Shown here in pieces: positions 18,365 through 48,228 of a stretch of DNA of 64,000 nucleotides (the first letter of the stretch is position 1; each line of letters begins with the position of its first letter). The position numbers were made by a program, and so were the translations under genes. Origin of the DNA: Thuidium tamariscinum (lineage: Eukaryota; Streptophyta; Bryopsida; Hypnales; Thuidiaceae); contig OZ019759.1 in assembly GCA_947034885.2 (NCBI GenBank), positions 14,572,501 to 14,636,500 on the forward strand. The letters run 5' to 3'. Below the pieces are notes generated by a model. That model did no database searches and was not told the origin of the DNA. It worked only from the letters and a program-made list of their open reading frames with translations.

Positions 18365-19503
18365 TCACTCCTTTACAGGGTTATATACTTCCACATTGGG
18401 CTCAGTTGCTAATGCTGCATACAATACTCGGAATGGGGGCTCATATGCTTCAGACACTAAAGTGCAACCCAACTCATCTGCTACAACGGATATCAAATGT
18501 TTTTGCATTGTGGCCAGCTTGTCCCCTGCTAGAAGCTCAGCTTAAAATAAGTCTTCTGTTTTTTATGCATCCAATCCTGCCATACTTGAGTCCGCGCCAT
18601 GAAAGAAACGAATGTACAACTCGATGAAGCGCAAAACATAAAACCCGCACTCATAGTTTCCTCGCTGGAGAAACACTAGTACATCTTTTCTGACAGGTTG
18701 TTTGGGCAGAGGAGAGTCATGCAGCAGCTGCCACACCTTCCACAAGCAGCTTGCATACTCTTTGTCATCCGAATGATGGTGAAGGTTTGTACTATTAAGG
18801 TGCAACAATGAGGTCTCAGTCAAAATGAAAAGAGACCAGTGCAGACTATCAACATACGGCACTAATACTTCTATTTTGGGAGGGCATTGGGTGTACAATC
18901 TTGAAGGTACGAGATACTGCCACCCCCATTTCTTCAATGCTTCGTCATTCTGTAAGTTCCACGCTGGATCTAAAGGACCTTGCATAAACGAAGAAGCAAT
19001 GTAAACCCGTTCTCTGGCCTCTGCAGACAAGCTCCACCACAAGCAACGACATAGAACTTCAAGCACATTCTGGCCCAGCATTATCCTACACCGTTGCAGT
19101 TGGCATATTTCAACCATGGGAACTGACAAGGACTCCCACTTTGACCCGTAGAAGTTTATTGTGCCGGCATCTTCAACACCTGTACCCTTCCTGACATCTC
19201 AAATTGAACCACCGTTAGAATTCCCATCTTCTGAAACTCAATGTTTTGCATAATCAAGAAACAAGGCGGGGTAGCAGTAGCGTTACCTTGGTAAGGCTTT
19301 CATGAGCTCCTCTATCTTGAAGTACAAATAGGTCTTCGATACAGAGAGTCTAGCCCACTGTGTGTCACTGAAGAACTTCGAGGGAGGGGGGAGAAATGTG
19401 ACACATCTAGGATTACTTAGTCTATGCGCGCTGTCTTGGTCTTTTGTTACCGAAGGATCTTGTTCGGCTAAACCCTCATCACTCTCGTCATCCGTGAGCA
19501 TGT

Positions 19504-20037: not shown

Positions 20038-20251
20038 GCACAAGCCGTGTATTTGAAGGTCACTTTTCCTTGTTGATCTTTGCTCTTATGACCTGGTTGG
20101 CACACAGCCATTACACTAGAATGAAGTCCAAGAAGAGTGTGTGGGAGGAACACTTGCTGTGAAAGCAGTAAGTGTTATTTCCACATCACATCCAAACAGA
20201 ATACTAACCTGTTTTGTTTGTGCAGTTTCAAGTGAAGAACCAGTGGGAGCA

Positions 20252-22744
20252 ATGGGAGGGGGGAGGACACAATGGGAATCCTGGTACAGGCTACAAGAGG
20301 ATGGGAAAGTGGAATGCAAGTTCTGCAAAACGAAGATTAGTTACCGCAAGGATCGCTTGCTTTTCCACTTGGGTTATAGACGAAATGACACCCTCCCCGG
20401 AGTGAGAATGTGCAACAAGGCCAGTGCAGCAGTGAAGGCTATGTTTTTCAATTGTGGGGGGAATGTTCCTACAGTCTCCGAAGACGAAGAGGAACATGAT
20501 GTGGAAGTGACATCACCGTCATCGAATCCAACGAGGGTGGTACGTGATCAAGAACTACCCAATGCTTCAATCTCAATTAGTGGAGGGGGAGGAAATACTT
20601 TGGGCCAAAATTCTCAAGTTCGATCATCAGAGGCGCCTGTCCCTTCTTCGACCCATAGTCGACCGCTGAGGCAATTATCCGTACAAGAAGGGATGGACAC
20701 ATCCAAAAAGCAAGTACTAGACAAGAAGTGGACAAAATTTTTCTACGAAGCAAATATCCCATTCAATGTGGTGAGACACCCCGCTTTTGTGGATGCCGTG
20801 AAATCAACCTCCGAGTCCAGAGTTCTTTACAAACCTCCACCTTACAATGCCATACGTACGAAGCTCATGACATCAACAAAGGAGGAAGTGGCTGCACTGG
20901 TAGCGGAGAAGACAAGGGGGCCTATCCACAAGTACGGTGTCACTATATGTTCTGACGGATGGGACAATGTCACCCATCGGCCATTAATCAATGTAATGTT
21001 GTCGTGTACGAGTGGAGAAGTATTTTTGGGATCGGTGGACACTACAGGCGAAAGCAAAGACGCTGTTTATGTGGCTAATCGCATGATCGATTACATTGAC
21101 GCGGTGGGGGGACATAATGTGGTGCAAGTTTGCACGGACAATGCGCCAAACATGCGTTTGGCTGGTACTCAAATTACTCGCGAATTCCCTCACCTATATT
21201 TCCAAGGTTGTTCCGCGCATGCACTTGACCTTCTACTTGAAGATTGGGGCAAGCAACTTTGGGTGGTCAAAATGGTGAAGAAAGCAAAATCAATCGTGAA
21301 ATTCATTCGCACGCATCACATGCCACTCGCCATTTTCCGACGACATTCTCCTAATCTCATGTTGAAGAATCCCATTGAGACACGTTTTGCGACCATGTTC
21401 CTCATGATCGAGCGTTTGGCCGAGGTCAAGGAAGCCGTGGAATCTACAGTCCATGATCCGCAGTGGAACAAATATGTGAGGTCCTCGAACGCTGCAATAC
21501 ACAATAAGGCAGAAAAGGTTCGATGTAGGGTTCGAAAGGACGAGTTCTGGAGGAGGTGTCTCAACTTCGTGCATATGGTAGAGCCTGTGTTGGTGGCTCT
21601 TCGAGAGTTTGATGGAAAACATCCGGTCATGGGCAAAGCATGGATCGTGATGAAGAAGCTAGAAAAGCATGTTTTGGCTTTGAGGAATCGACCATTTTCA
21701 TTGGAGGCAAATTATGCGAACCGTGCTGAATATGCGTTTTACGAACGATGGGATTTGATGAAGACCGATTTGCACTACGCAGCTGCCCTGCTCAATCCAT
21801 TCTTCCTTGATGAAATTGTACTAATAGACGATAACGAGGCAAAGGAGGCCATTCTTAGAGTACTACGCAAATTGGCAGTTGGAGGGTTGGGATATGCAGC
21901 CGCTTTGTTTGAGTACCAATCCTTTCAAGACCGCCGAGGCATGTTCGCTGGACTTCCCGATGTGAATACTTTGAATTTGGAACCGCATGAATAGTGGGAT
22001 CTTCTCGGAGTTGGTGCTCATACGCTTGCACCTATTGCAAGAAGGATCCTCGCACAAGTATGTTCCGCATCATCATGCGAACGCAATTGGAGCATGTATT
22101 CATTTGTCCACAGCAAGTCTCGCAACAGATTGACATCTGAGCGCGCGGAGGAATTGGTTTACATTTATACCAATTCGAGGACTCTCAGGGAAAGGGGTGC
22201 GGCGGATGCAGCACGATGGTACACTGAGAACACGTTGTCTGAAGATTCCATGACAACCGAATCAGATGGCTTCGATCGTGGTTCGGTTATGTCAGATGCT
22301 AACAACGATGACTCAGACGACAGTTCCAATGGCGATGATGATCCACCATTTCGGCCTTTGGGTGAAAGGCAAGAAAGGGGTCCCCTAATTGACGAGTCCG
22401 TATTTGACTTTGATGGCGCGGATAATGATGGAAATGACCACGGGGGAGATGAGGATGGAAATGACAACGGGGGAGACGAGGGTGGAAATGACAACGGGGG
22501 AAATGATGGCAGTCCGTCATGGATGCCACGTACATCGATTGCGGGGTCAAGTGGTGGAAATCAAAACGAAGGGGTTGAAGCCCCACCTTCACCGGTTATA
22601 AGGCCGATTGAAGAAGAAATGCGTACCCAGAGACATAAACATGTCGTTGTGGTAGAAAGACAAGGCGAAGATGAGGTCGTGCCACAGATCCCCCAGTGGC
22701 GCGGAACACTCGTAGCCACAGATCCCCCATTGGTGTTGAGATAG
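20252..22744 (+). pseudogene. hAT transposase (BED finger, DUF659, hAT C-terminal dimerisation), one in-frame TAG
   Basis: Start ATG 20252 (MGGGRTQWESWYR) begins a BED-type zinc finger: VECKFC, then the H-rich part ending at the C of MCNKAS. An acidic S/T-rich linker follows, then a DUF659/RNase-H-like core with TICSDGWDNVTHRPL, VCTDNAPNMR and GCSAHALDLLLEDWGK, and the hAT C-terminal block (VCSSSSCERNWSMYSFVHSK, NRLTSERAEELVYI). This is the catalytic protein that would move the 33-kb element. A TAG at 21992-21994 stands where the W-W of the family is expected (EWWDLL), probably a TGG-to-TAG change; the frame then stays open to 22744. After the hAT domain comes an acidic tail with 9-residue G/N/D repeats. 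The tail may continue, through a frameshift, in the open frame at 22675-23412. Confidence 0.9.
22431..22510 (+). repeat. 27-bp in-frame repeats in the transposase tail
   Basis: GGAAATGACAACGGGGGAGA recurs with a 27-base period about three times and encodes N-D-N-G-G-D-E-G-G repeats in the acidic tail after the hAT domain. Such repeats change copy number easily without breaking the frame. Confidence 0.7.
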
Positions 22745-23793: not shown

Positions 23794-24731
23794 TTAACCC
23801 CTAAAGGACCAAGAGTCCCCTCGGGGAACTTTAAGAATTAGGGCAGGTACTTGTGACTTCAATTTTCAATGAATTTTATTGAAATTTTCACATAAGATAA
23901 AAAAACTGATTAGCTCCGTGGAAATATTAATTTTTTTTCAATTGGTGACCAGGAGCAAAAGTTATGCCATCGTAAACATAATTTTCATGTTGCCGGGTAG
24001 AAAAAAAAATCTACAAAAACTTCAAAATTAAAAAAATAAATTTTTTTTCTTATAGATTATATTTTTGTCTACAAGTAAAGCTTTGATTCATTCCATTTGG
24101 ATTAGTAATGTGAAAGTTATGAACAATCTTGTTTTTCGGGCAATCTAAGCATCTTCTTGAAAAAATAACTTATAGGATTCATTTGTGAATGCAATTTTCA
24201 CAATTTTTCAAAAAAAATTGTTGGACAAGGTTGATTTTGTTTTCTAGAACAATATCACCATTGGGATTATTGTGTTTCAATTCCATCTATGAGATATTTG
24301 CAATTTAGTTTTTCTTTCAATCTTGGACCTACATCTACTTGACAATTTTTTAAAGAATGAAAAAAAGTCTTTATTTTGTGAATTTTTTTTCCTAAGCTCT
24401 TAGCTCAATTTCTCAATTAAAAAAAAATTTAATTCAAGGTCTGTAGTGCAAAAAAATTACATAAATGGAGGACAAAGTCATTTGAAGTTGCAAACTAGAG
24501 TTTAAGAAAACTTTGTTTTCCAACTTTGAATGCTCATATCTTCCTATCTATACGGTCAAACTTCATGAAATTTTCACCACATCATCTTAGTTAAGTAAAG
24601 TTCAAGATCCTATGGTTAGATTCTAAAAATTTAGTTTTTTTGTTTTTCATGGATGAATGGAACAAAAATGGCAGTTTTGAGTGGTTTTGGGTTGAAAAAC
24701 GGTCGTGGTCCTTTCAGGGTTGCTAGCAGGC

Positions 24732-24776
24732 GAGCCTGGGAGCGTGAGCCTGTGAGCCTGTGAGCCTGTGAGCGGG
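24732..24776. repeat. 8-bp GTGAGCCT tandem repeats
   Basis: GTGAGCCT is repeated about four times within a G-rich stretch that ends in GAGCGGG. A comparable GTGAGC-rich stretch lies inverted near 40308-40362, so these may be subterminal repeats of the TTAA-bordered element (inference). Confidence 0.6.
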
Positions 24777-24807
24777 AAAAAAAAATTCACAAAAATTGAT
24801 GAAGGAT

Positions 24808-24860
24808 CTATGACCGTAGATGGTCCTATGACCGTAGATGGTCCTATGACCGTGGTTGCC
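24808..24860. repeat. 18-bp tandem repeats
   Basis: CTATGACCGTAGATGGTC occurs at 24808 and 24826 and, diverged, at 24844. Each unit contains a short inverted repeat. Confidence 0.8.
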
Positions 24861-25179
24861 AAAATATACATTATCTGTCACTTATTTGTTCATTGTTTAG
24901 GAAATTGTTTTAGAACAATTTAAATTCATGGTAAGAGTATAGGGTTTAGGGTTTAGGGGAATACCTTTGTCCAATAAGACAACTAATTGATTATTCTTTA
25001 TATGATTTTCTACAAGACAAAGATTAAATATTATTTAAATAAATATAAATGAAGCAATAAACATTTTTATGCAAGAAAATGAAATACATCAAAGAAGTAG
25101 CCATAAAACACACAAATCCAATCATAATAAAAATCAATACACAAAAGTTTGATCCAAGAGATTTATCAATCTTCTGAAT

Positions 25180-28100
25180 CTAAATCGCTGTAGACTCTGT
25201 TGCAGAATCTGAACCTGTAGATGACTCTGAGGACTCTCTACCCTCAGATGCAGACACATCTACAAACTGCAAGACATTTAGAGCATAAGTATCTTTACGG
25301 TGCTTTGGTTTGGAACAACCAAACTCCGCAAAGGCACTTGCCAATTGCTCAGCATAGATAGGGAGCTCAAAAGTCTTCTCTGGGCTGATGAGAAGACTTT
25401 GTTTTGGAATGATGAAAGAAGTTGGCATCAATCTACGACCTCTGCAAAAAAATAAGACATGGTATTAGGTTTCTGGAACACAAAAGAGAATCAAACATGT
25501 GAAAAAATAATTTAAATATTGCCAACTTACTTACTAGATTTCCCCTTGCGAACAAACTTGCGAGGCACCACAGGCATGTCCTCCAAATCCTGTGAAGGCT
25601 CCACCACCGGCGTTGACTGCACTGTTTCTACTACACGCTCGAGTGACTTCTTCATCGGCTTGAGGATAGCATTATAAATGTCTTTGTTGCCCTCTAAAGC
25701 CACAATGTGGCGTCCAGTGGCACGGCAAGCTGTAATGCATGCACCTATTGCGAATGAAATAAAATGTATTAGTGCTTTGATTGAATTTGTGAAATACAAT
25801 TATAGTGTAAAAGATTTGAATTAAACACTGACCTGTAGATGCGGTGCAATCCAATATCAAATCTCCTTCAATGCTTGTAGCTTCGAGGAGGATGGTAAAA
25901 AACCTTGGATCTTTTTCACGCCCACCTCGCCAAGGCCACTCCCCATTCATGGCCATGTCATATGGATGGGTGTAGTTCATGAGCATGTCATCCTCTGCAA
26001 CATCAACACCTGCCTTTGCCATAATATTGGTTTTCTTGAAGGAAAATTTGGATGGTCCCTTGGAGCCAAGCTTCTTCACAAGCAAGGTGACTCCAAACTT
26101 CTGTGTCTGCACATTTAGGCCAAATGTACATTAGAACGCTTAAAATGTAGGGAAATATACAATTTTGATGAAAGACACTAAAAGTCAATTGAAATTACCG
26201 TCTTGGTCTTCTCTGCAGCCGAGGTAAGGTGCATGCGGTTCATCCCCATCCACTCCTTCTTGTGCACCAAGTCATACGCCTCACAAACTCCAGCAATGTC
26301 TTGCCTGGACTTCATACTGTATGAGTGAAACACTATGATGCATCCATGGTCTTGTAGATGCTCCATGGCAAAGCTACAAGCTGATTGTAGTGCTTCCGCC
26401 TCTACATCTGCGTTCCACTCTGGCACATCGTTTGGTGATGAAGAAAGCCCTGGCACGGGTAAATTCTCAGGGCAATCAATGAAAATGACATCCACCCCTA
26501 CTCGCACGTTTGGCACACCTTCAAACATGCGAGTCTTCCCATTTGACATCTGCAAATATGTAATACAACTCCGAATTAGTTAAAAAATAAAACAAGAATC
26601 AAATGACTTGAAATAAAACAATGAAGTTCAAAAATGACAATAAACATTGGTACCTTCTCTAGAAATTGTACCACGTCCTTGTACAAAGTCGGTTTGTCTT
26701 CCTCCATGTCGTCTGCAAGGTCTTGAATGGAGAAGTTGAGGATTAAATCCTCACTCTTCACCGCATCATCTTCAGTGAGGACCATACCTTGTGTAACATG
26801 TGTGATGACTTCTTCGGTGAGCTGGGAGAGAGTGACCTTTCTCACCACTTTGGATTCCATCTGTGAACCTTGATCCACTGTAGAAGATGGCACCCCTTGT
26901 GCCCCTGCTTCCTCCTTCTTCTTACCTTTGCCTTTGCCCTTTTCTTCCTTGTCCTTGTCTTCCTGGTCTTTCTGTGCTTTCTTTGCTGCTCGCTCAGCAT
27001 TTTTTTTCTCCTTGTTTTCAAGGTGAAGTTGGACTCGAGCTGCTTTCTTTCTGTCAACAGCATCCCTCCTTGCAATGGCCCTCCTTCTTGCGTTCTGATC
27101 AAGTCCAACAAACTCATCGACGTCACAGTCCACGACCCCTTTTCCATCCAAAGACCTCCTCAGCTCAATCTCTGATGGTGGAGTGAACTCGAGTGTACAA
27201 TCAAGGTACCACCCTCCTGAAGTAAGATGCGCCGTAGTATAAGTTCGGAGTTGGTGTGCACTAAACATGCAAGCTGAAGAACCACGATCAAGGAATGCTG
27301 GCAGAAACGGAGGGAGGTCTAAGCGTGCGATTGCCCCTTTTCCTTCAAGCTCAAATTTAAAATACCTGCAACACAAGGATAAACATTTTAAAGGGACATT
27401 TTTGATCATGCCAATATAACTAGGAGAATAATATTATATTTGAAAATTCCATTAATGGATAGGTCAACAATTTTGAGAATAATAGAAGCAAATAAAAGTT
27501 TAAAAAGTAGAATACACTTTCTTCAAGACAGTACATTATAATTCATAACTGAAGTCCTCATCTTCTAGAATTCAGTGATATTCGATTCAAAATGTAGACA
27601 TGCTTGCATGTCAATTTAGCCTTAACAAATGAACCTCATATAAAAAATTAATAATTTAGAAACACAAAAAATGAATCACTTTAATTTCTAAGTCATGAAA
27701 GACACATAACTGAATATTATCCATAATTGGTATAAAAAAATAGAATAGTACATACCGGAAAAGCACTCTCCGAACTGCAGTAGCTGAACCTTCGTGCGCC
27801 ATGAAGGAGTCACCCTTCTTAAAGTAATTTTGGCCCTTGAAATAATTCATAAAGCCATGATCCCATATAATGACCCTCCACTTCTCAATGTACTCTACCA
27901 AGTACTGTGGTTGTGTTGGGATCTTGTAATTGATCATGATGTTATCTTGCTTCACCACCGAATCAAAGTATTCCAAAGCCGCATCTTCAATCTAAAAACA
28001 TATTGCAAACCAAAATGCACACTTCAATATTTCATTAAGTGAATATAAAGGCTAAAATGCCATATTGAGAACAAATAATGAAAAGCTACAAACCAATGTA

Positions 28101-29687
28101 CACAACCAATTCATTACTTACCCCTGCATACCAAACGCATTTGGCAAGAAATTGAGGAAGGAGAAGCTCGGAAACAGGTTTCGGTGGGAACTTTCGTGCT
28201 TCACGAGATGGAACAGAAGAATTCCACCAGCTCAAGATCTTGATCTTGTGCGCTGAAGTCATACTACACGTGGCCACAAGTTGCAGTTTCTCCAATGTCA
28301 TCTCGAGCACTTCATTGGTGCTCCAATGCCTCTCCACCTATATAAGAAATCTTCAGATTTTTAGTTCCAAATCCATTTATTGAAAGACCAACACATAATC
28401 ATGCACCACATTTATACATTACTCACCTCCTCAAGAAAGCCAGGTCCATTGTAAGGGTTAGCCACTACTAGCAGTTTGCCCATCTTCCCCATCAAAACCT
28501 TGGTTTTCTCCCTAGCTCCTTCCCGCATAGCCTGGGCAGCCAGTTCTGCCTTCCTATCGCATTCTGCTGTAACATCATTATACTTTCTCACTGCAGAATC
28601 TGCAGCTTGAGAAATCTCTTGCTGCATAATAAACCAATTTTGGAAATTAGTAAATCCCAGAGTTCAAACGTTTGTCAATTTGAACAATATATAATTTCTA
28701 TAGGAAATAAATTCTTACCCTGAAAATGAAGGACGTGAAAACCTCCACGGGTATGCTGTACCACTTTCGAGAAACCTTGTTTTCAAGACACTTCTTCTTC
28801 TCTGAGGGCCTTAGAAGATCTGCAAACCTTTCAATTGGTAGAAGTCCATACTTTTGCACTTGGTACAAAGTATGTACCAAGTTAGTCTTGACATGAGAGT
28901 CCTCCACCGATCTGTACGTCATCAATGACAATGAAATCAAAGTAAGTCTTATTTTCTACTAAAGAAACATAAAATAAAATTGTAAACAACTGAAATCTTG
29001 AAAACATTTGAATTGGAGAACTTACTTGTTGATATCATGCATCACTTGCATAATAAGCTCCGTTCTCCCTTTAGTATCCAATAGAATGCTATCCACAACA
29101 TAGTGCCACTTTGGGATCAAAGTATAACACCTATCTATGAGATTCATCCAGGCAATTCTTCTGTGATTCCCATCGCAAATGAAGAACTTCAAGTTCTTCA
29201 GGGACTTGAGTTTGACCGTGGACTCTAGATACCGCTCAAATACCTCATTCTTTTCTCTCCAAATGGGGTCCCATTCACTCATCTCAGCCTCAGTGAACTC
29301 TGAGCTGTATCCTTCCTCATTCGTGGTAGACACGTAGAAAGCAGCCGCTCCATCCTGATATCCCCCAGCAAATTCTTGCTCCAACTTGACAATATCAAAA
29401 GCTAGAGTAGGCCTTACCATGGGCATGGCTACTAGCCTGCAAAGGGGAATGCGAAGCCGATAAAGCTCTTCGGGCTTTATGCGAAGTTGGGAGAGAATGT
29501 CCACTGAATCGCCCTTTTGAATACGCCTCAAGTCGTCCTCCAACATTTTCTTCTCCTCTTCATCGTAAATCATTTCCATTGGAAGGTCTTCCTCTCCTCC
29601 GACAATATGTGGTTGTCTTGCCTCATCTATTTTTGGAGTCTCATAGATGGTTTCCGCTTGAGTTTCTTTGACAGGTGAGACATCCAT
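25180..29687 (-). CDS. ParB-like / beta-class N4/N6 DNA amino-methyltransferase, 10 exons, 1102 residues
   Basis: Ten minus-strand exons with GT-AG borders and matching phases: 29687-29026, 28911-28719, 28621-28427, 28337-28122, 27991-27756, 27365-26654, 26549-26199, 26106-25833, 25744-25535, 25439-25180. They total 3309 bases with no stop before 25180. Residues ~60-220 include FFICDGNHRRIAW, the D-G-N-H-R block of ParB/sulfiredoxin-fold domains. Residues ~600-670 are a K/E-rich coil (EDKDKEEKGKGKGKKKEE). VDVIFIDCPE (~763) stands at motif IV, the place of catalytic (D/S)PP(Y/W). LDCTASTG plus ACITACRATGRHIVALE across the exon 8/9 junction is motif I, the SAM-binding D-x-F-x-G-x-G plus G-R-x-x-x-x-x-E. 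Motif IV before motif I is the beta-class order. ParB-methylase fusions are known in bacteria and phages; a spliced form in a plant transposon is unusual. Catalysis is uncertain because motif IV reads DCPE. Confidence 0.75.
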
Positions 29688-29922
29688 CTGGAAGTACAAG
29701 TTCAAAGATATTATTGATTGAGAGCAAAGTCAACAAAAAAAATGTACTAATCGTGTAAGCACGTAACAAAATTTGCAATGTTAATTGCTTTACTAATATA
29801 ATGATATTTCTCAATTGAAAAATGCTCAGGTGAGATTGAGACAAAATGAGCCTTTACAAGGCTTTGTTTATGGGCCATACAAAGAAATATTGCTAGGATG
29901 ATTGAACCTAAGGAAACCAAAT

Positions 29923-32815
29923 CTACCCTATGATGTCAACATCATCATCCTCAGAGTCAGAACTGAGGATGATGACCTTGTAAGTATAAAATTTACCAGC
30001 GTGGTTTGATTCATAGGCTTCCTCAAACGGAGGACTAGAACTAGCATTGGAGAGTTCTATAGCAGAGGAATACTCTGTTTCTGAGCTCTCTGAAGAAAAC
30101 CAAGGACCGGGGCCACGGTTCCAACTCAATCTATCTCCCTCAAAATCATTGGCAGCTCGCTCAGCAGCATCCATTATATCTGCAAAACTCACCAGAGTTT
30201 GTTCTTCGTCACTAGAATCACTTGAGAGTGGTACGCCAGGCTGTGGCCACTTCTTTGGCTCCGATGGTCCTCCAATGTCAAGAGCTGGAAAAGATTGCTC
30301 TAGGGGGGGTTGCTTCTCTGTAAAGGAAGTCTTCAAACGTTTACCTCTTCGTTGACCATCCTGCAAAAAATGAAAAAAAAAATATAAATGAATATTTACA
30401 ACTATTCAATGACAAATGAAATTAGGCATTTGTGAAGAATGAAATAGCAAAGAAGCATGTTCATAAGGTTATCTATCTTTATTCCAACAAGAATATAGTA
30501 ATATGACATCAAAATAATATCAATAGAATCCTTTATGAAAACTTTCAAGGACGTTAAAGACTTAGAGAATTTTAATTTTACAAAATCTTTTCTCTTACTT
30601 TTTTATTGCGTTTCCACCAATTGTCCCTAAACCCTTAGGAATGCTTATGAAGAAAAAATAGTTTGACCCTTTCAACAAATGAAAATCTAGGGTACCATGA
30701 GGTAACATGGAAAGGACCGTCGGATCCGACGGTCCTCCCCGTGGCACCTCGTGGTACCCTAGATTTCCATACTTCAAGAAAATTTATTGACTTCATAGAT
30801 TAAGGATTTTGTATGAAAAAATTCATCACCATCTTTATACACATCAATAATCATCCGGACTTGTAATAAACATTCCAAATATTAAAAAATATCTTTGATT
30901 CATGGGGAAGGTGCAAGATTCAAGGGGATGAATAATAATAAATTGAAACAAAAATTAAAACACAATATCAAATTATATAAACTTTGACATGGAGAATACT
31001 TCAACAAATACGAATGAAAGTGAAATGTCAGGAGGACTCACCTTCTCAGAATTCTTCATCACATCATCAGATGAGGTCGTACAAGGCTGAGGTACCTGAG
31101 AGAGAAAAAAATATCATGACCCCGAAACCAACGGTCACCTGGATGAAACCAAATTCTGGGTACCTTGACTCTCTCGAGATCTTACCGTCGGATCCGACGG
31201 TAGTCTGGCCGGTACCTCGCGGTACTCTGACTTCGATGCCCGATATTCAAAAATGAAATCAAAAACCAAATTCCCGAAGTACAGTCTGACTATATGGATG
31301 GAATTCCGTTCAATTTTCCATGAACAACACCTGCTAAGGTTTCACTCCACGAAGATTGGAGAGCTCGAAAACTAAGTCCGAATGAACCAGCCAGCATCCT
31401 CATGAACTTTAAAACTCAATCCTGAATCAGGTGCCTTCTTTGAAGTCAAGGGCGCCTTCTTGCTGTGCCGAAATGGGGGGTAGTAGGAGCTACCCCACGA
31501 ATCACCGTCGGATCCGACGGTGTTTCCTGGGGTAGCTCCTGCTACCCCCAATTCCGGCACAGCGACGAAAAATATCAGACATTTCGGCTCAGCGAGGAGA
31601 AAAGACAAGTCGTAGACTACCTGGAGATCAATTCCGAAGTACCTGCGAGATCAAACTAAAGAAAACAGCACCTGCAGGTACTGAGATGATACCAAAACAA
31701 AATTTCACATTAATATGCATGAAGTTTAGCGTACCTCTTCTTCAACCTGTGAATGAAGCTTGGCATTTGAATTTCGTTTTTATCTTCTCTGAGAAGCTAG
31801 ACTTCATTGTCAATTCCGTAGATATTGAAAACGAGGGGTACCCCCAAATCCTCCTAACTGAGAGAAACAATCGCAAATAACACCTGTAGAATATTGGGCA
31901 CCATCTCCGGGGCCTAGCATCCGCATGCCGTGACTCTGGTTTTCGGCGTGGGGAGCATCTCCGGCAACGTTGGATCCAAGTGCCGGGAGTGAGGTTTCTT
32001 CCGGAGCGACCTTGGCTCGAGGCAGCCTGGACGAGCCTCAGCGGCTTGGATGCCTGAAATTGTGAACATCTGCGGCGCTAAGACGGCTCCCCCCACTCCC
32101 CGTGATTCACTAAATTGAAGCAGAATGTTTGGAACGTTCAGATTCTGGGGTACTCGGACTCGCCCCTGAAGGTCACGTCGGATTCGACGGAGATTTCTGC
32201 CGAGGGTTGGGGTACTCACAGAATTGAGAATTCGAGACTACATTGGGAAAAAAAAATCCTGTCAAGGCGCCACGACCGGCACGCGCTGGGGCGGGGGAGC
32301 ATCTGCGCGAGGACCTCGGGGATAGGGTGCGCCACGACTAGCGCGTGTCGTGGCGGGAGAGCATCCGCGCCTCCACCGCGGGGAGCGCTCGCGCCACGAC
32401 CAACGCGCGCTGTGGCGGGGGAGCAGCCGCGCCACCACCGGCGCAAGGAGATTCGTGGCGAGGGAGCGTGAAATTCGTTGGAGTCGCGCAATCTGGAGGC
32501 AACAGGCTGGTGGCGCGCGCTCGCTGCTGGAGCGCGCAACAGGGTGGTGGCGCGCAGGCTGGTGGCGCACGCTCTGACGTCCAAGCTCGTGTGCGGACTA
32601 AGGTTGCACACGTTGGGTCCTGGGCTGCTGGTACTCAGGATGCCGTGACGGGCTACCACTAACAAGAAGATCCACACTTTGCATTCCATTTCACTTAGAG
32701 AGTCCATTAAGCTGCTTACCTGAGGAGCGGGGGTCGTTTGCGGCCTTCTTGGATTCCTCACTTCAGCTCCCGTCGCCTCCCCTTGTTTGGAGCGACTCCG
32801 CGTGGCGCGCGTCAT
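29923..32815 (-). CDS. small acidic nuclear-type protein, three exons
   Basis: The exons are 32815-32720 (ATG, MTRATRSRSKQ, ending at CAG|GTAAGC), 31095-31042 and 30360-29923, all in phase 0 with GT-AG borders, for about 195 residues. The product starts basic and continues with KRLKTS and serine/acidic clusters (SSDSSDEEQT, SSDSEDDDVD); no known domain is recognised. It lies 235 bp upstream of the methyltransferase on the same strand and may be its partner, or extra upstream exons of it. I found no good splice donor in the right phase to join them. A possible micro-exon near 31650-31740 is unproven. Introns 1 and 2 carry the palindromic hairpins and a GC-rich 62-bp repeat. Confidence 0.5.
30683..30766. 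repeat. foldback hairpin 1, core CCGTCGGATCCGACGG
   Basis: The palindromic core is at 30717-30732. The arms 30683-30724 and 30725-30766 are reverse-complementary with a handful of mismatches and no loop (TCTAGGGTACCATGAGGT against the complement of ACCTCGTGGTACCCTAGA). It lies in an intron of the small acidic gene. Confidence 0.85.
31155..31237. repeat. foldback hairpin 2, core CCGTCGGATCCGACGG
   Basis: Core at 31185-31200, flanked by more diverged arms (TCTGGGTACCTT on the left, GGTACTCTGA on the right). Located in an intron of the small acidic gene. Confidence 0.7.
31462..31564. repeat. foldback hairpin 3, core CCGTCGGATCCGACGG
   Basis: Core at 31505-31520. Arms of about 50 bases pair well: GTAGTAGGAGCTACCCC on the left with GGGGTAGCTCCTGCTACCCC on the right, and GCTGTGCCG with CGGCACAGC further out. 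The arm sequence differs from hairpin 1 although the core is the same. Confidence 0.85.
32144..32222. repeat. foldback hairpin 4, diverged core
   Basis: The core reads ACGTCGGATTCGACGG (32175-32190), two changes from the shared palindrome. The outer arms TTCTGGGGTACTC and GGGTACTCACAGAA are partly complementary. It looks like an older copy. Confidence 0.6.
32267..32452. repeat. 62-bp GC-rich tandem repeat in intron 1
   Basis: GCGCCACGAC recurs at 32267, 32329, 32391 and (variant) 32429. The first three are exactly 62 bases apart and carry GTGGCGGGGGAGCA-type blocks. Strongly CpG-rich; it lies in the first intron of the small acidic gene and could act as a CpG-island-like control region (inference). 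Confidence 0.75.
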
Positions 32816-34369
32816 CGTTGAAGGGCTCTGCAAGAGAAACGAAACTTCTTGAGGTACAGGAAGACCTACTAAGGAATGACACTCGCCATGGGAGCTGTGC
32901 ACAAGCGCACACAGATGGAGAAACTCTCTAGCGCAGGTGATCTGCACTGAGCAGGTGTGAGGAGGTCGTTGCGAATGCTGGACGCGGGGGCAAATGCAGC
33001 CCAAAGTTGGACACGGTGAGTGAAAGATCCGAATTCCATTTCCGAATAGAGACAAGAGAATTCAGAGGATCCGCAGGTGGAAGGTGCGCTCTGAACTCCC
33101 GATCCTTGCTTTTCGGGACAAGTGGGATTCTGCAGGCTTGTAGGAGCTGGCACGACTCGGCATTCGAGACACGTTTCAGTCACCGGAGCAGTCCTGATTC
33201 TAGGACGTTGCAGCCTTGCAAGTGATCAAGGAATTTTGGAAAGTGAACCCGTTGAGCAATAAATCAGGTCCTGGACATGCACGTCATTCAAGGTACACGC
33301 ATAGCAATCTGCATTCTTCTCATACATGGTTTTGGACGAGGTTAGACCGACTACTGTTCCTTTTTCTGGGAGAAATGTAGCCTGAATTATGACAAGGACC
33401 AAGACAGTTTTCATTTGTCCATTTAACGCTTAGTGTTGATGATACAGGATTCGAAATCACGGAGTGAACTTTTGTATTCAGAATTCTTGAGATTTACTAG
33501 TAATGCTAGAAAGGGTAAACCAGGCGCACTACTTCCCACCCAAATATTTCGGTGTGCTTTGGAAGCATAAATCATTACATTTGATTCACTGCCTCAGGTT
33601 CTTGAATCAGTCATTTGTCTTTGTTGCGTTTAGGGTTTAGCTTACATTGATAGACTACAGAATAAGCCGTGAACAATATAACAATCTATCATTATTGTCC
33701 TAATTAAATTTTAAGTATTTGAAATGAATTTTGTTTAAGACTCATCATGCATGCCAAAAATTTCATTCAAGAAGAAAATTGAGAACACCTAAAGCTTTTC
33801 TAAACCTAAAGAATGACATAGTCAAAACAATTATTTACAATTTACTCCATTAATGATCAAGAGGCCTTGTAGATGTGGAAATGAGTAGGAAGACAATCAT
33901 TGTAAAAGAGAGTGACTTCCAGAAAATTCTTTTTGGTACCGTCTATAGTTTCCCTCCCTCTGAAATTGAGTACCCTATTTCTTTCACTGTATGAGTACTT
34001 GGTCTAACCCTCTTACATCTAAATTGAAGTCTACGATTAGTCTATAATGTCTCCTCTTACATGAACGCACTGTAAACTATAACTTCTACTTATGTATTTC
34101 ATTTTAGTTTAGAGAAACTTGGAAGTGCACCCTCATTTCCTATGGAGCTTTCTCACTGTAATCTTAGATCTATATATCCTAGTTTCGTAGAAGGTTTAGA
34201 TGTATACTCTACTCTTTCAATTAAAAGCATATCGTTGTTATCGATTCTAATGCCAATGAAGAATTCTGGAGAGATGAGCCTTTGTCTATCATGGCTCCTA
34301 TTTTAATCTTTACATAAAGTAAATGTCCAATAGATGGAAGGCAGTGAAGGGTGAAGGAGTTGGAATAGA
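32816..34369. other. upstream region between divergent genes, no clear gene
   Basis: Contains the presumed promoter of the minus-strand small acidic gene just above 32815. Open frames here (for example minus 32869-33183) overlap in several frames and show no domain. From 33.4 to 34.3 kb the sequence is AT-rich with nothing recognised. Confidence 0.35.
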
Positions 34370-34690
34370 CTACAAGTTTCTTACATTCTCAACTTCATCT
34401 GGAGGTGCAGGTTCGTAAGCCTCCAAATTGGGGTTGAAATCGCCATGCCCTGCCTCCACATCCTTGTGCACAGCAATCACAGACTCGCCGCTTGCTCCAC
34501 CTTCAAAACGTAGAGTCTTCCGAGTTTCAACAGCTCCTGAGTCACTCGACTTAGAGAGAGCCCTCTTAGCCCGTGTCATCCTAGCCCTACGGAGATCTCT
34601 ATTGGAAGAAAAAAGAAACAATCTTCGCTTTCTCCTCTTTCTAACAGGCTGTGAGTTATCAACAATAGAAGTCTGGCCCTCTAAGAGCAT
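34370..34690 (-). CDS. small basic hypothetical protein, 106 residues
   Basis: The ATG at 34690 opens a frame ending TAA/TAG at 34370, preceded by an in-frame TGA about a dozen bases upstream. The product has a strong nuclear-localisation-like cluster (RKRRKRRLFLF, RDLRRARMTRAKR) and an acidic C-terminal part. No family is recognised. It lies between the small acidic gene and the SWIM gene within the TTAA-bordered interval. It could be a real small nuclear protein, an exon of a longer gene, or chance. Confidence 0.35.
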   Translation of the reverse strand: MLLEGQTSIVDNSQPVRKRRKRRLFLFSSNRDLRRARMTRAKRALSKSSDSGAVETRKTLRFEGGASGESVIAVHKDVEAGHGDFNPNLEAYEPAPPDEVENVRNL

Positions 34691-34699
34691 ACGCGTAAA

Positions 34700-35461
34700 G
34701 CATCAAGGTCCTGAACTATGTAAGAAAAAAACCTCTGAGACAACGAACAAGACAATCTGAAATGAGCATTGTTTCTGAAGGGGAGGATCTAAATAGTCTT
34801 CAAATGTGGAAGTTTGCCTTAACTATGCAGTCGGCGGTACTACGTTTCTTTGTCCAACACTATGCCCAATACTCATAAACGTGCCGTCTTAGCCAACGTC
34901 CTTCCGTTGCCGTCATTTCGCATGCCGTCAGAGATTCCCGCACATCAATGATATCCAAGAATGATATTTCCGGGTGCCGCCAAATCTTGAATGAATCAAC
35001 TACGCATGTATTTGCTGTCATAGAATCCAAAGAATTTAATTAGTTCATCTAAGTACTATTTCAGAACTGAATGTGGCACACTCAAAAGGTACAAGAAGCA
35101 TACAAGTACTATAGTAGTAGATAATATTTAGAATTTCAATGTAATTACTATATGAAAATTTCAACATTTCAAAATTGAAAGCATTAATAGAATGTCCCAT
35201 AAATTAGTAATTAAGAACAATACCATTTCAAATTTTCACTAAGCGGCGGCTTCAATAAAGGACGTTAACAATGAGAAAGCAGGTCCTACCATCATTGAAC
35301 TTCATAGTGAAATTAATGAGCTCCGTTGTTCTTGCCACATAAATCATTTGTGGTGACTGCTGTAACCCCTTCATTCCCAAAACTCTTCCTTATGAATTCT
35401 AAATACTCTTACCAGAGTCTCCCTTTTTAGTATTGGATTGGATTGGTCTATTGCTAGAAAT
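34700..35461. other. leader region of the SWIM gene
   Basis: AT-rich with a short GC-richer stretch near 34830-34960 (GCCGTC and CCGTTGCCGTCA motifs) that may be promoter sequence for the gene starting at 35462. No TATA box stands out. Confidence 0.3.
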
Positions 35462-38400
35462 ATGGCTTCTATACGTGTAGATGGTCACGAGGTCCCCTTA
35501 GTCTTCCCACTTGATGAAAAAGGGTATGCTACTGTTTTCAACCACTTTCTTCATGTGAGGTTCAAGTTCATTGAGTCATCTGTCTATATTGAGGAAGAGA
35601 GAAAGTCTGAGGCAGGTGAACTACTACAATCTATTCCTCTCATGAAGTCACTATGTGAAGAAGGACATTGTTGGTCTTTGGGTTCTGGAAATTATAGAGT
35701 GTATGGTCTCCCTCTACCGATGCATCCTGTGTCAACTGAAATAGGAAGTCGCCAGTCGGCCAACTCAACAGTGGACATGCCCTTCGCGGCTAAGGCAACT
35801 ATACCATGTCCTAATACTCGCAGTCCTCTCCCAATGTTTGCTACAAATGAAAATGATGTTCTTGTGAAGGTAGAGAAGTTGGATACTATTGTAGATTTAT
35901 CTAGCGATTCGGAAGGAGAGTTCGTACCCTCGTCTCTTACCCCTAAACCCTCCATGATTATAATTGATTCAAGTGAAAAGGCCACCCCTCACTCAAACAG
36001 GAAAATGGAAGGTAGTTCTATTTCTCAGTCTTTGCTTTCTAGTCCTTTGCCACAAGCAAATACTGTGAGATCCGTCAGTATAATGGATTGTCTACATAGA
36101 CTTGCTACTCTTCATCGTTCTAGGAGTGAATTGTCTACAGTAGACCTGAATATCATGAAACATCATCGGGTAGCGTTTCTACCACCTGCATACAATGGAG
36201 ACTCTATTTTTGAGTTACCACCTTGTCAATCCTCATCTTCTTCATCGGCTGCCAAGAATCTGGAGGGAATGGATAAGCGTTATGACGGACATCCTTGGTG
36301 CAAACTGGTGACAACAAACATCCACAACACAGACAATCTTAAGTTTCGTAAGTCATACTGCGCTGGTCATCTTGTTTGTAAGAATACTGAGTGTGAGTAC
36401 TTGAAGAGGGCTTCTAGAAAGAATGAAACAGAGTGGATAGGGTCTACTATTTTCCCTTTTGTAGTAGGAGAAGGTCCTCCTAAAGATTGTAGGCTTATTT
36501 GCAAAGTGTGCAAAAATATACCTACTTGCATTGGCATGTGTGACGCTAGGATATACTATTGCTACAGTGATAATCCCGAAATGACTAGAGCCGCTATTCA
36601 CTTTGGAAGTCATACTCACCCGGTAGCTAAAGGCATGTATAGAGACTCCGCCAAAGAAATTAGCGAACTCATTGCAGAACAAGTGGCCAAAACTCCAACG
36701 GCTACAAACTCTGCTATTGCGTTGTCTGCTAGCAAAGACTTCTTGACGAATCATTTATTTCACTACGGAACCGGAGAGAAGGAGTTGCTTAAGGGAGAAG
36801 AGATGGAAGAGGTTATGGACCGCTTCCAAGTTCTAAGCAGTCCTAGTATACGGAATGTCATCTCTTCTTTCCGCACAAACAATCGAGGAGGTGTTATCGA
36901 CAACATTATGACTATGAAGAAAGAATCCAAATTTGAATTCATCCACGACAGCGTTTTCCCAGGCCAAGGCAAGGAGAAAGTGTATATATTCAAAATGCTT
37001 ACCGAAGGACCTGGAAGTGGAGTCGACCTCGTCAAGCGCATGCAACCCCAAAGAGATCTTCACAATGCGTGGATGATGTTTGACCACGTGAAGCGCGTGA
37101 AGGACTGGACCACGATGGCTTGCCACGTGTATGACGCACAGTACAAGAAAGTGATGACCATTGCAGTATGTGACATGCAGTCTGAAGATACAGAAGTTCA
37201 AGTACAATTCTGGAGGAGTTTGAAGGCTGTCATGACTAATCATGGTGTGTCTGACACAAACTTTAAGGGCTTCATGGCAGACAGTGCAATGGCAAATTGG
37301 AATGCAGTACGTATTGTCTTTGGCAGTGTTTCTCCGAATGAGGTCATGGAAAACCGAGAGAGGACATGCTTGTTGCATTGGACTTCTTCTCTTATCAAGC
37401 ACACTCAGAAACATATCAAGCAAGCATTCCAACACCAACACAATATGCTGTGCAAGCAATACAAAGAATCCAAGACCATGGATGAAGCAGAGACACGATA
37501 TCTTGCAATCCGGTCATGGTGGTTGTCATCTGGAGCTGCAAGCGAAGAGTCTCTTCATCACTTAGAGCATTGGCTGGCATTTTGGCATTTTCGGTATTTA
37601 CAATGGGGAGGCTTTATGACAATGGTACGCAAAATAATGATTTGTTTGTAGTTTTTTCTTATATTTGCTAGAAAATGTGGAAGGTATATAATTAAATTTA
37701 CAAATAGAAGGACTAAGTCTTTGTATTCTAGTATTTGTTGTGTGAGTATAGAGAACTAGAAATCCTATCTTGGTATCCTTGTATGTGAAATGGGATTGCT
37801 CTGAGGCCACACATGTGGTTCCGTCGGATCCGACGGAATCATATTGGTTGCCTCAAAATAATACCATTCTGGATATTTATCACTTGTAAAGAATTCTGTA
37901 CGTTTGTCCATTAGGATTTTCATTCTTCATTTATCTTGCAAACTATCCTACACCCACATTTAGATTATTTGGAAGGGAAGGATGCAATCTTGAATCTAAA
38001 TTTTGGCAAATATTGTGTCTCTAACCAATATCATTAAATTTTCAAGGTTTGAGTTTGGAAGAGATGACAGATCTACCTTTCTGTAATTTATCTGAAACGA
38101 TTCATAACAAGTGGCTACAAATGTCCGGTAAACGTGGAAACAATTTGTTTGACGCTACTTGTGATGATAGTATTCGCGCTTGGATGCAAATGACGAACTA
38201 CCGTGCATATCTCAAAGGACACGCATCTGGTTCAGGCCCATCAAAGGGGGAATTGAAGTTGAGAGCTGCAAGACGTAGCGGATGCCCTAAGAAAATAGCG
38301 GAAGCGTTGAACACATTGCCAGAAGCTCATGGTGTGGGAACTCGAGTACCACATTTAGAAGGAGAAGAAATATTTGGAAGCACTAAGCGAAAGTTGGATG

Positions 38401-39434
38401 TGCCTATTGGTGATGATGGAGATTCGCATAGACCAGACAAAATGAACTTCTCCCAACCCCGTGTTCGAACAAGGTCAACTAAGATAGTACAAGAGCCATT
38501 GGAGGTCAATGCATCACAAAGTGAGGTAAATCCCTTTCAATTTGTGAGTGTAGCATTTGAAAGTGATTGTGACACATCAAAGTGGCACATTGCTAGGATC
38601 AATCAAAAATCAAATGCTAGATGTTCAGCTCAACAACGAACATCCAACATCAAATGTACTTGTAGGATTTCGAAGGGGAAAAAGGGAACCCCTGCTCCTA
38701 CGTATCGTGGTAGAAAAGAAGAGTATGGCACTAAATGGGAGGTCGTGGTAGACTTCTGGTTTTGTTGGGATGATATTGAACGATGCGTCAAAGGTACCAA
38801 GCGGAAGTGGGTCATTGATTGGCCAGAGGTGCCAGAGGTTTGGCCTATTTTGAGTGGAACAAACCTCAATCGAGAAGAGACTTTGTTGTTGCAGCATGCA
38901 GGCTTCCATCTTCAAGAGAAGCCGATATTGTCACCACGTAAGCTCTTTACCATGTCTAAGATTTTCACGCCTTTCCTTCTTGACCAACCATCTCCACCTA
39001 ATGCGGATGTACATCCAACAGTGAGAAACAACCGAACTATTAGGAGACTTGCAAATGCCCCAATTGTAGAGCAACGAAACAAATGGGAGAGTGCTGGGAA
39101 TATTAGAGGACAAATAGTAGAAGTGATCCTTCTCCCTTTTCCAGGACTTGGTGCAATAGTAGTTTTGGAAACTGGGATGGAATCTACAAAAAACGTTTAT
39201 CGAGTGACAATGGGTATGTTCCCTACATGTACATGCCCAGACTTCGTGAACATGGTTGTATCTGCTATTGGAGGGCGAGCACAATACGTGAACTGCAAGC
39301 ACTTGTACTATTTGTACAGGTATTTCTGCAAGATGGATATTCATGATGATAAATTCATTCATACACCTAGTTATAGCTTCAATGAGTTGAAGGTACTCCT
39401 AGTCCGTGCAGGGATCATTATAGTCTCGAAATAG
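35462..39434 (+). CDS. GCM-like zinc / DDE-like / SWIM protein, candidate transposase
   Basis: Two exons: 35462-37624 (ATG, MASIRVDGHEVP) and 38064-39434 (the acceptor AG at 38062-38063 keeps the frame; the AG at 38045-38046 would shift it). About 720 plus 456 residues with no internal stop. After an acidic/serine linker, KSYCAGHLVCKNTECEY, CRLICKVCKNIPTC and IHFGSHTHPV form a GCM1/FLYWCH-like zinc block. HVYDAQYKKVMTIAVCD and GFMADSAMANWNAVR are candidate catalytic-aspartate strands of an RNase-H fold, and CNLSETIHNKW a candidate glutamate site. A SWIM finger follows near the end (TCTCPDF ... NCKHLYYLY). This order is typical of MULE-related transposases. It lies within the TTAA-bordered element and is the only transposase-like gene there. 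The intron carries hairpin 5. Confidence 0.65.
37795..37860. repeat. foldback hairpin 5, core CCGTCGGATCCGACGG
   Basis: Core at 37821-37836 with short, partly matching arms (TGAGGCCAC...GGTT on the left, GGTTGCCTCA on the right). It lies in the single intron of the SWIM gene. Confidence 0.7.
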
Positions 39435-39436
39435 GC

Positions 39437-40381
39437 ATAGCTTCTTATTTTCAATGTACCTCATCCATATTGTATCATTGGACATTTTCAGTGCATGAAA
39501 TCATATGAAAATCATGGAATAGAAGGAAATATATGCATGACATGAATACATGACCCTTAACCCTCAAAAGTAAGGGAAATGTGGGATAATTTTTCAAATG
39601 CATATGTACAAGTTCAAATTGTATATCTCATCATGATAATGCACATGTGAATATGAAACACATTTTTCTTTTCTGAATCATTTCCTAAACCATTGTAGTC
39701 CATTTTATAAAAAGCCAAAATTCCTTTTCTCTTGTCTTTCCTAAACCCTCCTCCATCATTATTTGGTTTTAATTTGGGAGATGCATTTGTTAAGTATTTT
39801 CTTTTAAATTTTCTTCGATTGTTTCCATTTATCTTCCATTTTCACAAAATATCTCCCCATTTTTCCCATTTTAAACTCATTTCTATACCTTAGCCTTTTT
39901 TTTTGCTTTACATCTACACTTGTACCAACACATGTCCCAAATCCCTATTTGTATAGGATAGTTATATGCCTCAATTTTGCTTATTTGTTTTATATACCCT
40001 CCCACAAATACTAGTGACTATTCCAAAAGTGACATGATGAGTTCATAATACCTGAAGCAGTCTGAAAGTTCTTAACTGTAAATCAAGTTTTGGATTTGAT
40101 ACTTTGCACAAAACTTTGGAACCCTACACCTAAACCCTAAACAATGTATGGCTACTCAATATAATTTTTCATGACAATCCACGGTTATAGGGGGGCACGG
40201 TAATAGGTCACAGAACTTCATACAAATAGTAAATTCAGAAATATTTTTGAATAATTCTGGCCCAATTCCTTTTTTCACCAACTTCTTCAACAATTAAGTC
40301 TTGTTGAGGCTCACCGCTCACAAGATTCCCGCTCGCAACTCACGAGCTCACCGCTCCAAACTCGAACGCTAGCGTCGTTGG
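39437..40381. other. 3' flank of the SWIM gene and right subterminal part of the TTAA element
   Basis: AT-rich with no gene seen. CTCACCGCTC and GCTCGCAACT repeats at 40308-40362 correspond, inverted, to the GTGAGC-rich stretch near 24.75 kb. The 3' end of the minus-strand kinase lies at 40612. Confidence 0.4.
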
Positions 40382-40611
40382 TGGTCCTTTAGGGGTTAAC
40401 ATGGCATTAAGTCCAAAATTTGCGAAGGGACAGAACTACTCACAAATCCACTCACCGGAATCGTACTCGAATGGAACAAAAAGATTTACATATATTTATT
40501 TCAAAAAGGAGTTAGTACAAAATTCAGTGAGGCAAAGTTCGTGGACTATACTGTGGTAAAAGCAAGTACTAAGGTACGTCTACGATTACATTGCCACTAA
40601 AATACTATTCT

Positions 40612-42315: not shown

Positions 42316-42510
42316 TCTGAAAAATAATATGCGATGGTAAAACCAAGGAATTAGGGTTCAGTACTCACAAATGTGAAAACTATCCCCCCTTCCTCAGCCG
42401 AGCCTCCTCGCAAGCACCCGCGCTCCCAAGCAAGGACTGCAACCAATCCAGGGCAAGAGAGCACCGTCAGAGCAGGAGAGACTCGTGCAGAGTGGGGGAA
42501 CTAGCCCACC

Positions 42511-48027: not shown

Positions 48028-48228
48028 TCCCAAATTCAGCCGCAATGAACCTTGCTTTCTCTCTTGAGTTGCTCTGTCCTAGCTTGAAAAAAGCTTTGCA
48101 TTGCAATTCGGGAGGAAGTCAAGCATTTGGCTATTGCTTTGCCACATTCCAGTTGCCCTCACGCAACAGGAGGCAGAGCATAGTCATCTGTACATACATA
48201 CCGTGTTGTGGCATTGTGTGCAGGTACT

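Follow-up and report, generated by a model that had tools for sequence, protein, structure and literature searches.

A putative Mutator-like transposon of a green plant codes for a methylase-related protein with an altered active site

A transposon with a spliced gene and two transposase ORFs

We analysed a stretch of 64,000 nucleotides from Thuidium tamariscinum (contig OZ019759.1, positions 14,572,501 to 14,636,500), which is referred to as the window. It contains a transposon of 15,666 bp (24715..40380) that carries, besides two open reading frames (ORFs) for a putative transposase, a spliced gene of ten exons on the minus strand. Judged from its sequence, this gene codes for a methylase-related accessory protein with a D-G-N-H-R domain in the N-terminal part and a relative of beta-class amino-methyltransferases in the C-terminal part.

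The ten exons (29687..25180) can be joined in phase to 1104 residues followed by a stop codon, and all nine introns have GT-AG borders. Coordinates and phase are as in an initial annotation of this DNA, while the length of 1102 residues given there had to be corrected. Exon 1 (29026..29687, 662 bases) provides the start codon and the sequence ICDGNHRRIAW, in which D-G-N-H-R corresponds to residues 172-176. It is followed by exons 2 (28719..28911), 3 (28427..28621), 4 (28122..28337) and 5 (27756..27991). The largest exon, exon 6 (26654..27365, 712 bases), codes for the central region with a charged coil, which had been noted initially and which we also recognize, by eye, at about residues 606-665. 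The methylase-like part is encoded by exons 7 to 9: exon 7 (26199..26549) carries the motif IV region (VDVIFIDCPENLPVPG), exon 8 (25833..26106) a motif X-like segment and the first half of motif I (GDLILDCTAST), and exon 9 (25531..25744) the second half of motif I (GACITACRATGRHIVALEGN). Exon 10 (25180..25441) ends the protein with an acidic, serine-rich tail and the stop codon.

A projection of the exon coordinates of the window onto 16 copies that were fetched leaves seven with a completely open frame. Six (L009-L014) are close copies of the window gene, and in one of these (L013) an acceptor site reads AA and not AG. The seventh, L022, has only about 76% DNA identity and 81% protein identity to the window gene and yet keeps every splice site. 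By this simple projection, the other nine copies are truncated, shifted or stop-bearing. With a spliced aligner and the window protein as sole query, introns 7 and 8 were found in the same phases in eight of nine sequences (the window, L021-L023 and L032-L035, with the intron 7 acceptor of L021 displaced by two codons, and none in L019, which is truncated there), and intron 1 was found in the same phase in eight of eight sequences. These comparisons show that the exon chain is more than chance and that the gene is real.

An artefact or a contamination was considered and rejected: introns are present in the gene, and the copies that were scored are distributed over ten contigs of a genome that also has 49 matches to chlorophyll-binding proteins.

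Boundaries and transposase of the element

Copies of the transposon align as far as the ends given above, which read CAGGGTTGCTAGC... on the left and ...GCTAGCGTCGTTG on the right. Both ends share GCTAGC and GAGC-rich repeats, and the inverted ends are short and imperfect. The element is flanked by a target-site duplication of 10 bp, GTGGTCCTTT, at 24705..24714, with an identical copy at 40381..40390. Such 10-bp duplications are perfect in all five copies for which both ends were read, the window copy included; the other four have duplications of their own (GACTCTGGAT, GTTCTAAAAG, TAAAATTTAC and GGTGTCAAAG), each present on both flanks. Close to the left end, an 8-bp tandem repeat (GAGCCTGT, 24732..24773) is present with 5.5 units. 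The unit number of this array varies between copies: in 15 left ends, GTGAGC occurs one to four times. It is a possible protein-binding array. A subterminal 18-bp tandem repeat follows at 24808..24853 (2.6 units).

Both transposase ORFs are on the plus strand. ORF 1 (35396..37651, 751 residues from stop to stop) is common to the copies and has a DDE region that was recognized by eye, and ORF 2 (38025..39434, 469 residues) has a SWIM-like zinc finger in its C-terminal part. The Pfam SWIM profile matches ORF 2 with an E-value of 0.19, which is below cut-off, while ORF 1 is without any Pfam match, and no MULE family was found in Pfam for either ORF. A target-site duplication of 8-11 bp together with terminal inverted repeats is a hallmark of Mutator-like elements (MULEs); here, the duplication is 10 bp in five of five copies and the inverted ends are short and imperfect. 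Because the SWIM match is sub-threshold and the DDE motifs were assigned by eye, we can only infer a Mutator-like class, and the transposase should be called MULE-like rather than a proven MULE.

The spliced gene and the transposase occur together in most of the copies listed. At least 33 of 40 gene copies have a copy of ORF 2 upstream, on the opposite strand and within 25 kb (median 10.7 kb), where about 0.001 would be expected per gene copy; the remaining seven are without a match among the 40 ORF 2 copies listed. A diverged element (L022 and L039, about 76-80% identical) has the same layout and its own target-site duplication. The initial proposal that the gene is transposon cargo has thus been confirmed by the 10-bp duplications, by the shared layout of the diverged element, and by selection on the gene.

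Purifying selection on cargo and transposase

Selection was estimated as the ratio of nonsynonymous to synonymous substitution rates (dN/dS) between the window element and L022/L039. The ratio is 0.124 for the whole gene, which is similar to the values for the transposase (0.158 for ORF 1, 0.108 for ORF 2). Along the protein, from N- to C-terminus, it is 0.059 (residues 1-220), 0.098, 0.097, 0.067, 0.194, 0.155 (residues 739-985) and 0.286 (tail). However, dS against L022 is not uniform: it is 2.46 for the N-terminus and only 0.33 for the tail. Because dS falls along the gene, exchange or recombination between element families is suggested, and the values for individual regions are therefore rough. 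Comparison with L015, which has one stop, gives 0.19. The ratios of 0.69-0.89 against the near-identical copies L009, L012 and L014 are based on very few changes and are little informative. From the pattern of substitutions we conclude that the gene is under purifying selection.

A large family with apparently recently mobilized members

In a search of the 363-Mb genome with the DNA of exon 6, the best 40 of 232 candidates were scored. All 40 match, 31 of them, the window copy included, at 95% identity or more. Among these 31 listed copies, 12 are on contig C11 (17.5 Mb), where 1.5 would be expected (binomial 9e-9); this contig may be a sex chromosome or some other chromosome rich in transposons. 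With the methylase part as query, at least 270 exon matches were obtained (best 150 of 1413 candidates). A query from a diverged family, family B, gave at least 150 matches (best 150 of 576 candidates), about 40 of which have 64-100% identity to B.

Per exon, the identity of family B is about 37 to 58%, and in the deeply diverged families the matches break at the same exon borders as in the window gene. On contig C4, a family-B element has been inserted into a family-A element (L016, L058), and the terminal sequences are similar. At the other end of the scale, several copies of the element are about 98.5-99% identical, and two of them, besides the window copy, have perfect duplications at both ends. 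That near-identical copies carry clean duplications suggests that the element has been mobile recently.

Relationship of the C-terminal domain to beta-class DNA methylases

With the whole protein as query, the Pfam profile PF01555 matches only residues 928-973 (E 0.034). With the domain alone, all six diverged members match, the best with an E-value of 1.6e-4 (22.1 bits; the cut-off is 26.7 bits), and the family-B domain comes closer to the same cut-off (E 1.3e-5, 25.7 bits). All these matches are confined to the segment from motif X to motif I. In PHROGs, the window domain matches six families and that of L033 seven, all of them annotated as DNA methyltransferase or methyltransferase (best 1.1e-6). 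In NCBIfam, CcrM is matched at 0.0011 (window) and 0.0018 (L033), and PRK11524 at 0.075. A profile search of the PDB returned four hits, two of them unrelated, with an adenine methyltransferase (5hek/5hfj) at 0.033, and a single-sequence search of the PDB gave nothing useful. When the domain was aligned by hhalign to 11 phage methylases, the match again extended over motif X-I, with 27% identity over 66 columns (Prob 95.7, P 8.9e-9). When the motif IV half was aligned alone, hhalign placed DCPE on D-L-P-Y of the first phage row.

The occurrence of motif IV before motif I within one domain is the defining order of the beta class. In the window protein, D763 of motif IV precedes D941 of motif I by 178 residues, the order described in the initial annotation. 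We consider the relationship of the C-terminal domain to beta-class N6/N4 DNA methylases to be well supported at motif X-I and moderately supported at motif IV. The profiles support the proposed relationship to amino-methyltransferases (PF01555 in six of six members, below cut-off; PHROGs; hhalign); a canonical motif IV is missing.

Searches for relatives outside the genome gave little. By tblastn, the methylase part has weak matches in phages and plasmids (best E 4e-3, 9e-3 and 3e-4); most of the rows listed are annotated methylases, and the remaining few lack an annotation, are hypothetical or belong to other proteins (aldolase/kinase, FkbM methyltransferase). Relatives of the full protein or of the methylase part were not found in two scans of viral contigs. 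A single host gene (L028) that matches PF01555 weakly, at E 0.54, and has the canonical motifs DPPYG and DPFVGTG was set aside since it resembles an RNA methylase, presumably one of the TRM-G10 type; the PF01555 search of the host reads exon by exon, so that split genes can be missed.

The active site is altered and the alteration is conserved

Motif IV could be read 24 times in 23 of 24 sequences (L020 gave no reading and L016 two). It is D-C-P-E in 19 of the readings; the others are D-M-P-E in the second element of L016, Y-C-P-E in L034, and D-C-L-E, D-Y-P-K and N-Y-P-K in L029-L031, which are copies with many stops. Two further families read D-C-P-E (L060) and D-M-P-E (L059). The canonical form [D/S/N]PP[Y/F/W] occurs in none of the 26 readings, whereas all 11 phage relatives, read by eye, have D-[P/L]-P-Y, six of them with L. 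In place of the aromatic residue of motif IV there is Glu in all families; the exceptions are three copies that are full of stops and have changed otherwise.

The element protein has DCTA[S/A]TG as motif I, compared to DxxxGSG in ten of the 11 phage enzymes and DTFAGSC in the remaining one (TenJQ), with Ser or Ala replacing the first Gly of the loop. As the diverged family B keeps D-M-P-E and DCTAATG, the aligned families indicate that the altered site is old and conserved, and not a sign of decay. In the rotifer methylase N4CMT, conversion of SPPY to APPA, by which two residues are replaced at once, abolishes activity (PMC8885841). From the residues at the site we lean against conventional methylation. 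The initial idea of a modification system that marks or protects DNA is weakened, because the motif IV aromatic residue has been replaced and the motif I glycine has been changed.

The N-terminal region and its possible relation to ParB

Of 18 readings of the D-G-N-H-R block, 15 are unchanged, and the others are DGNYR, DENHR and NENHR. The block is also present in families B, B2 and A3, which are about 47 to 62% identical in this region. A motif of the type G-x-x-R or D-G-x-H-R is typical of the ParB/sulfiredoxin superfamily. However, no ParB profile match was obtained for the region in Pfam, PHROGs, NCBIfam or the PDB; there were only weak matches to unrelated or unnamed families, such as phrog_33395 at 0.034 in two of five members. 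A six-frame search of the genome with PF02195 was without a match at E 10.

Profile-profile comparisons were made with ParB sequences from plasmids and viral contigs. Against three templates, which were weak (L053 is in the wrong frame), the score was reached by eight of 150 shuffles for the whole region and by 142 of 150 for the part from GNHR on. For a second comparison, ParB ORFs were taken from 80 of 90 matched stretches and from L062. An ORF was obtained for 78 of these 81, and cuts no longer than 150 residues were removed before alignment. Here too the score was within the shuffles (81 of 120), and the best register, itself not significant, puts DGNHR on AGERR. A regular-expression test found canonical methylase motifs in none of the 78 viral ParB ORFs. 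An AlphaFold2 model of exon 1 alone, computed from the single sequence, has a mean predicted local distance difference test score of 33.6 and is useless. By tblastn, the matches of the N-terminal part, six phage records and one plasmid record, have E-values of 3 or higher. Of the ParB-like fusion described initially, the D-G-N-H-R block persists, while membership in the ParB family has neither profile nor profile-profile support. The motif makes the ParB half an unproven lead and not a result.

Other features of the element and of the window

Within the element, an acidic ORF that neighbours the spliced gene (ORF-B, 29923..30405, minus strand) is conserved in the diverged L021, L022 and L024, where the DNA is about 77-78% identical. 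The element also contains self-complementary stretches of about 80-100 bp (30679-30770, 31462-31563 and 37789-37868), perhaps palindromes or small nested elements.

Outside the element, an ORF on the plus strand (20120-22744) is transposase-like and presumably of the hAT type. Pfam recognizes DUF659 in its part 20120-21994 (E 1.4e-36), and a single stop precedes 21995. An ORF for an Ulp1-type protease (18563-19198, minus strand) matches Peptidase_C48 just below cut-off (E 5.7e-4). Just beyond the right end of the element there is a protein-kinase ORF (40612-42357, minus strand, E 5.4e-9) which belongs to another repeat family, having at least 40 genomic matches, the one in the window included. 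Finally, a RING finger (E 1e-6) is present in a long ORF at 48184-50352 on the plus strand.

Proposed role of the accessory protein

We tentatively favour the view that this is an autonomous Mutator-like transposon of a green plant which combines a SWIM-type transposase with a DNA-binding helper of its own, built on a methylase fold. The accessory protein would have kept the DNA-binding and perhaps the S-adenosylmethionine (SAM)-binding shell of a methylase and would have lost conventional methylation. It may bind to the repeat-rich ends of its own element, and the end-bound protein could help transposition or could counter host silencing as VANC does for VANDAL; a helper role in building the transposition complex is an alternative. 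Such a role fits because a methylase-related protein under selection is found beside a transposase, together with end repeats that vary in number. VANC, encoded by the Arabidopsis VANDAL transposons, binds to short motifs in the non-coding tandem repeats of its own element, and silencing marks are lost (PMC5735166, PMC10398659).

Several points weigh against this view. The comparison with VANC is made by analogy, and both DNA binding and an effect on silencing are hypothetical. The class of the transposase is derived from a SWIM match that stays below threshold and from motifs recognized by eye. The alignment of motif IV is weak when taken alone (Prob 4.2, with the score reached by two of 200 shuffles). 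Position 2 of this motif is naturally variable (L in six of the 11 phage enzymes), and since it tolerates change, only the replacement of Y by E is telling. Motif I is changed only in part, and because its D and its last G are kept, the protein may still bind SAM and have some activity.

An alternative is that the protein is an active methyltransferase for N4-cytosine or N6-adenine, in which D-x-P-E, though unusual, is a working site; it would mark the DNA of the element. Such an enzyme would agree with the clear relationship to N6/N4 methylases and with the dN/dS of 0.155 in the methylase part, which indicates purifying selection, and active C5 methylases encoded by transposons are known (PMC5890265). 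It nevertheless seems unlikely to us given that none of the 26 readings has an aromatic residue in motif IV, that the first Gly of motif I has become Ser or Ala, and that the double replacement in N4CMT abolishes activity (PMC8885841). We give still less weight to an explanation in which the D-G-N-H-R domain is a nuclease or nucleotide switch of the ParB/sulfiredoxin type that nicks or clamps the element DNA for transposition or replication, with the methylase domain serving only as a targeting module. Bacterial fusions of ParB and adenine methylase with nicking activity have been reported (PMC5512222), and D-G-N-H-R is conserved in 15 of 18 readings and three diverged sequences; the region is, however, without a ParB family match, its profile-profile scores are within the shuffles, and PF02195 is without a match genome-wide.

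Two further explanations concern the benefit of the gene to the element. Copy control, in which the protein represses or regulates its own element and thereby lowers the cost for the host, is one option proposed for transposon-encoded methylases (PMC5890265). We regard it as improbable, as copies of about 98.5-99% identity with perfect duplications point to recent success. The gene might also be a mere passenger, captured without any role for the element. Captured gene pieces are frequent in plant Mutator-like elements, but this gene is full-length, is under selection similar to that on the transposase, has the same layout in an element of about 76-80% identity, and shares its exon borders with diverged families, so that we find a passenger very hard to believe.

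Going beyond the DNA-binding helper that we favour, a bacterial-type ParB-methylase fusion may have been adopted by the element as a protein of its own, in which the D-x-P-E site has been rebuilt. It would recognize the end repeats of the element and either introduce a modification that is neither 4mC nor 6mA or act as a shield against silencing by the host. We consider this doubtful, although less so than the other explanations just discussed. If true, it would be a new kind of transposon-encoded epigenetic system, in a large, old and still mobile plant family.

Comparison with known systems

Transposons with their own DNA-methylation-type proteins allow one to ask in which way a mobile element opposes host silencing or exploits it. 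The cases known to us are retrotransposons with methylases (PMC5890265) and VANDAL with VANC (PMC5735166, PMC10398659). The element described here pairs a DNA transposon with a relative of amino-methylases. That the altered site is kept in deeply diverged families provides a testable case of a methylase fold that has perhaps been reused, and as the system seems to have been mobile recently it could be studied in the living plant. Among the titles and abstract openings listed from the open-licence literature, none describes a ParB or amino-methylase gene in a DNA transposon of plants, which is weak evidence of novelty.

With VANDAL the element has in common an accessory protein beside the transposase and short non-coding tandem repeats, the number of which varies between copies (PMC5735166, PMC10398659). 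It differs in that the accessory protein carries a methylase-related domain, and its binding and anti-silencing are putative. Eukaryotic retrotransposons carry C5 methyltransferases, some of them active, and DIRS elements carry adenine methyltransferases (PMC5890265). As in our element, a DNA-methyltransferase-type domain is under purifying selection in a mobile element; however, the enzymes there are of the C5 type, whereas here a DNA transposon codes for a relative of beta-class amino-methylases with an altered site. The bdelloid rotifer N4CMT is likewise an amino-methylase of bacterial type in a eukaryote, but it has the canonical SPPY and a chromodomain and is described as a captured host gene and not as transposon cargo (PMC8885841).

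Bacterial ParB-methylase fusions and phage polyvalent proteins possibly share the order of a D-G-N-H-R block followed by a methylase; in the element protein it is the motif alone that is found, and the ParB fold is putative (PMC5512222). Similarity is also found to the beta-class methylases of phages and bacteria, such as those of Lactococcus phage LP1502b and Streptococcus phage Javan505, CcrM of NCBIfam and DpnA (PDB 5hek/5hfj). They share with the element protein the sequence similarity over motif X-I and the order of motif IV before motif I, but they have D-[P/L]-P-Y where the element protein has D-[C/M]-P-E, and in the element the domain is embedded in a spliced protein of 1104 residues.

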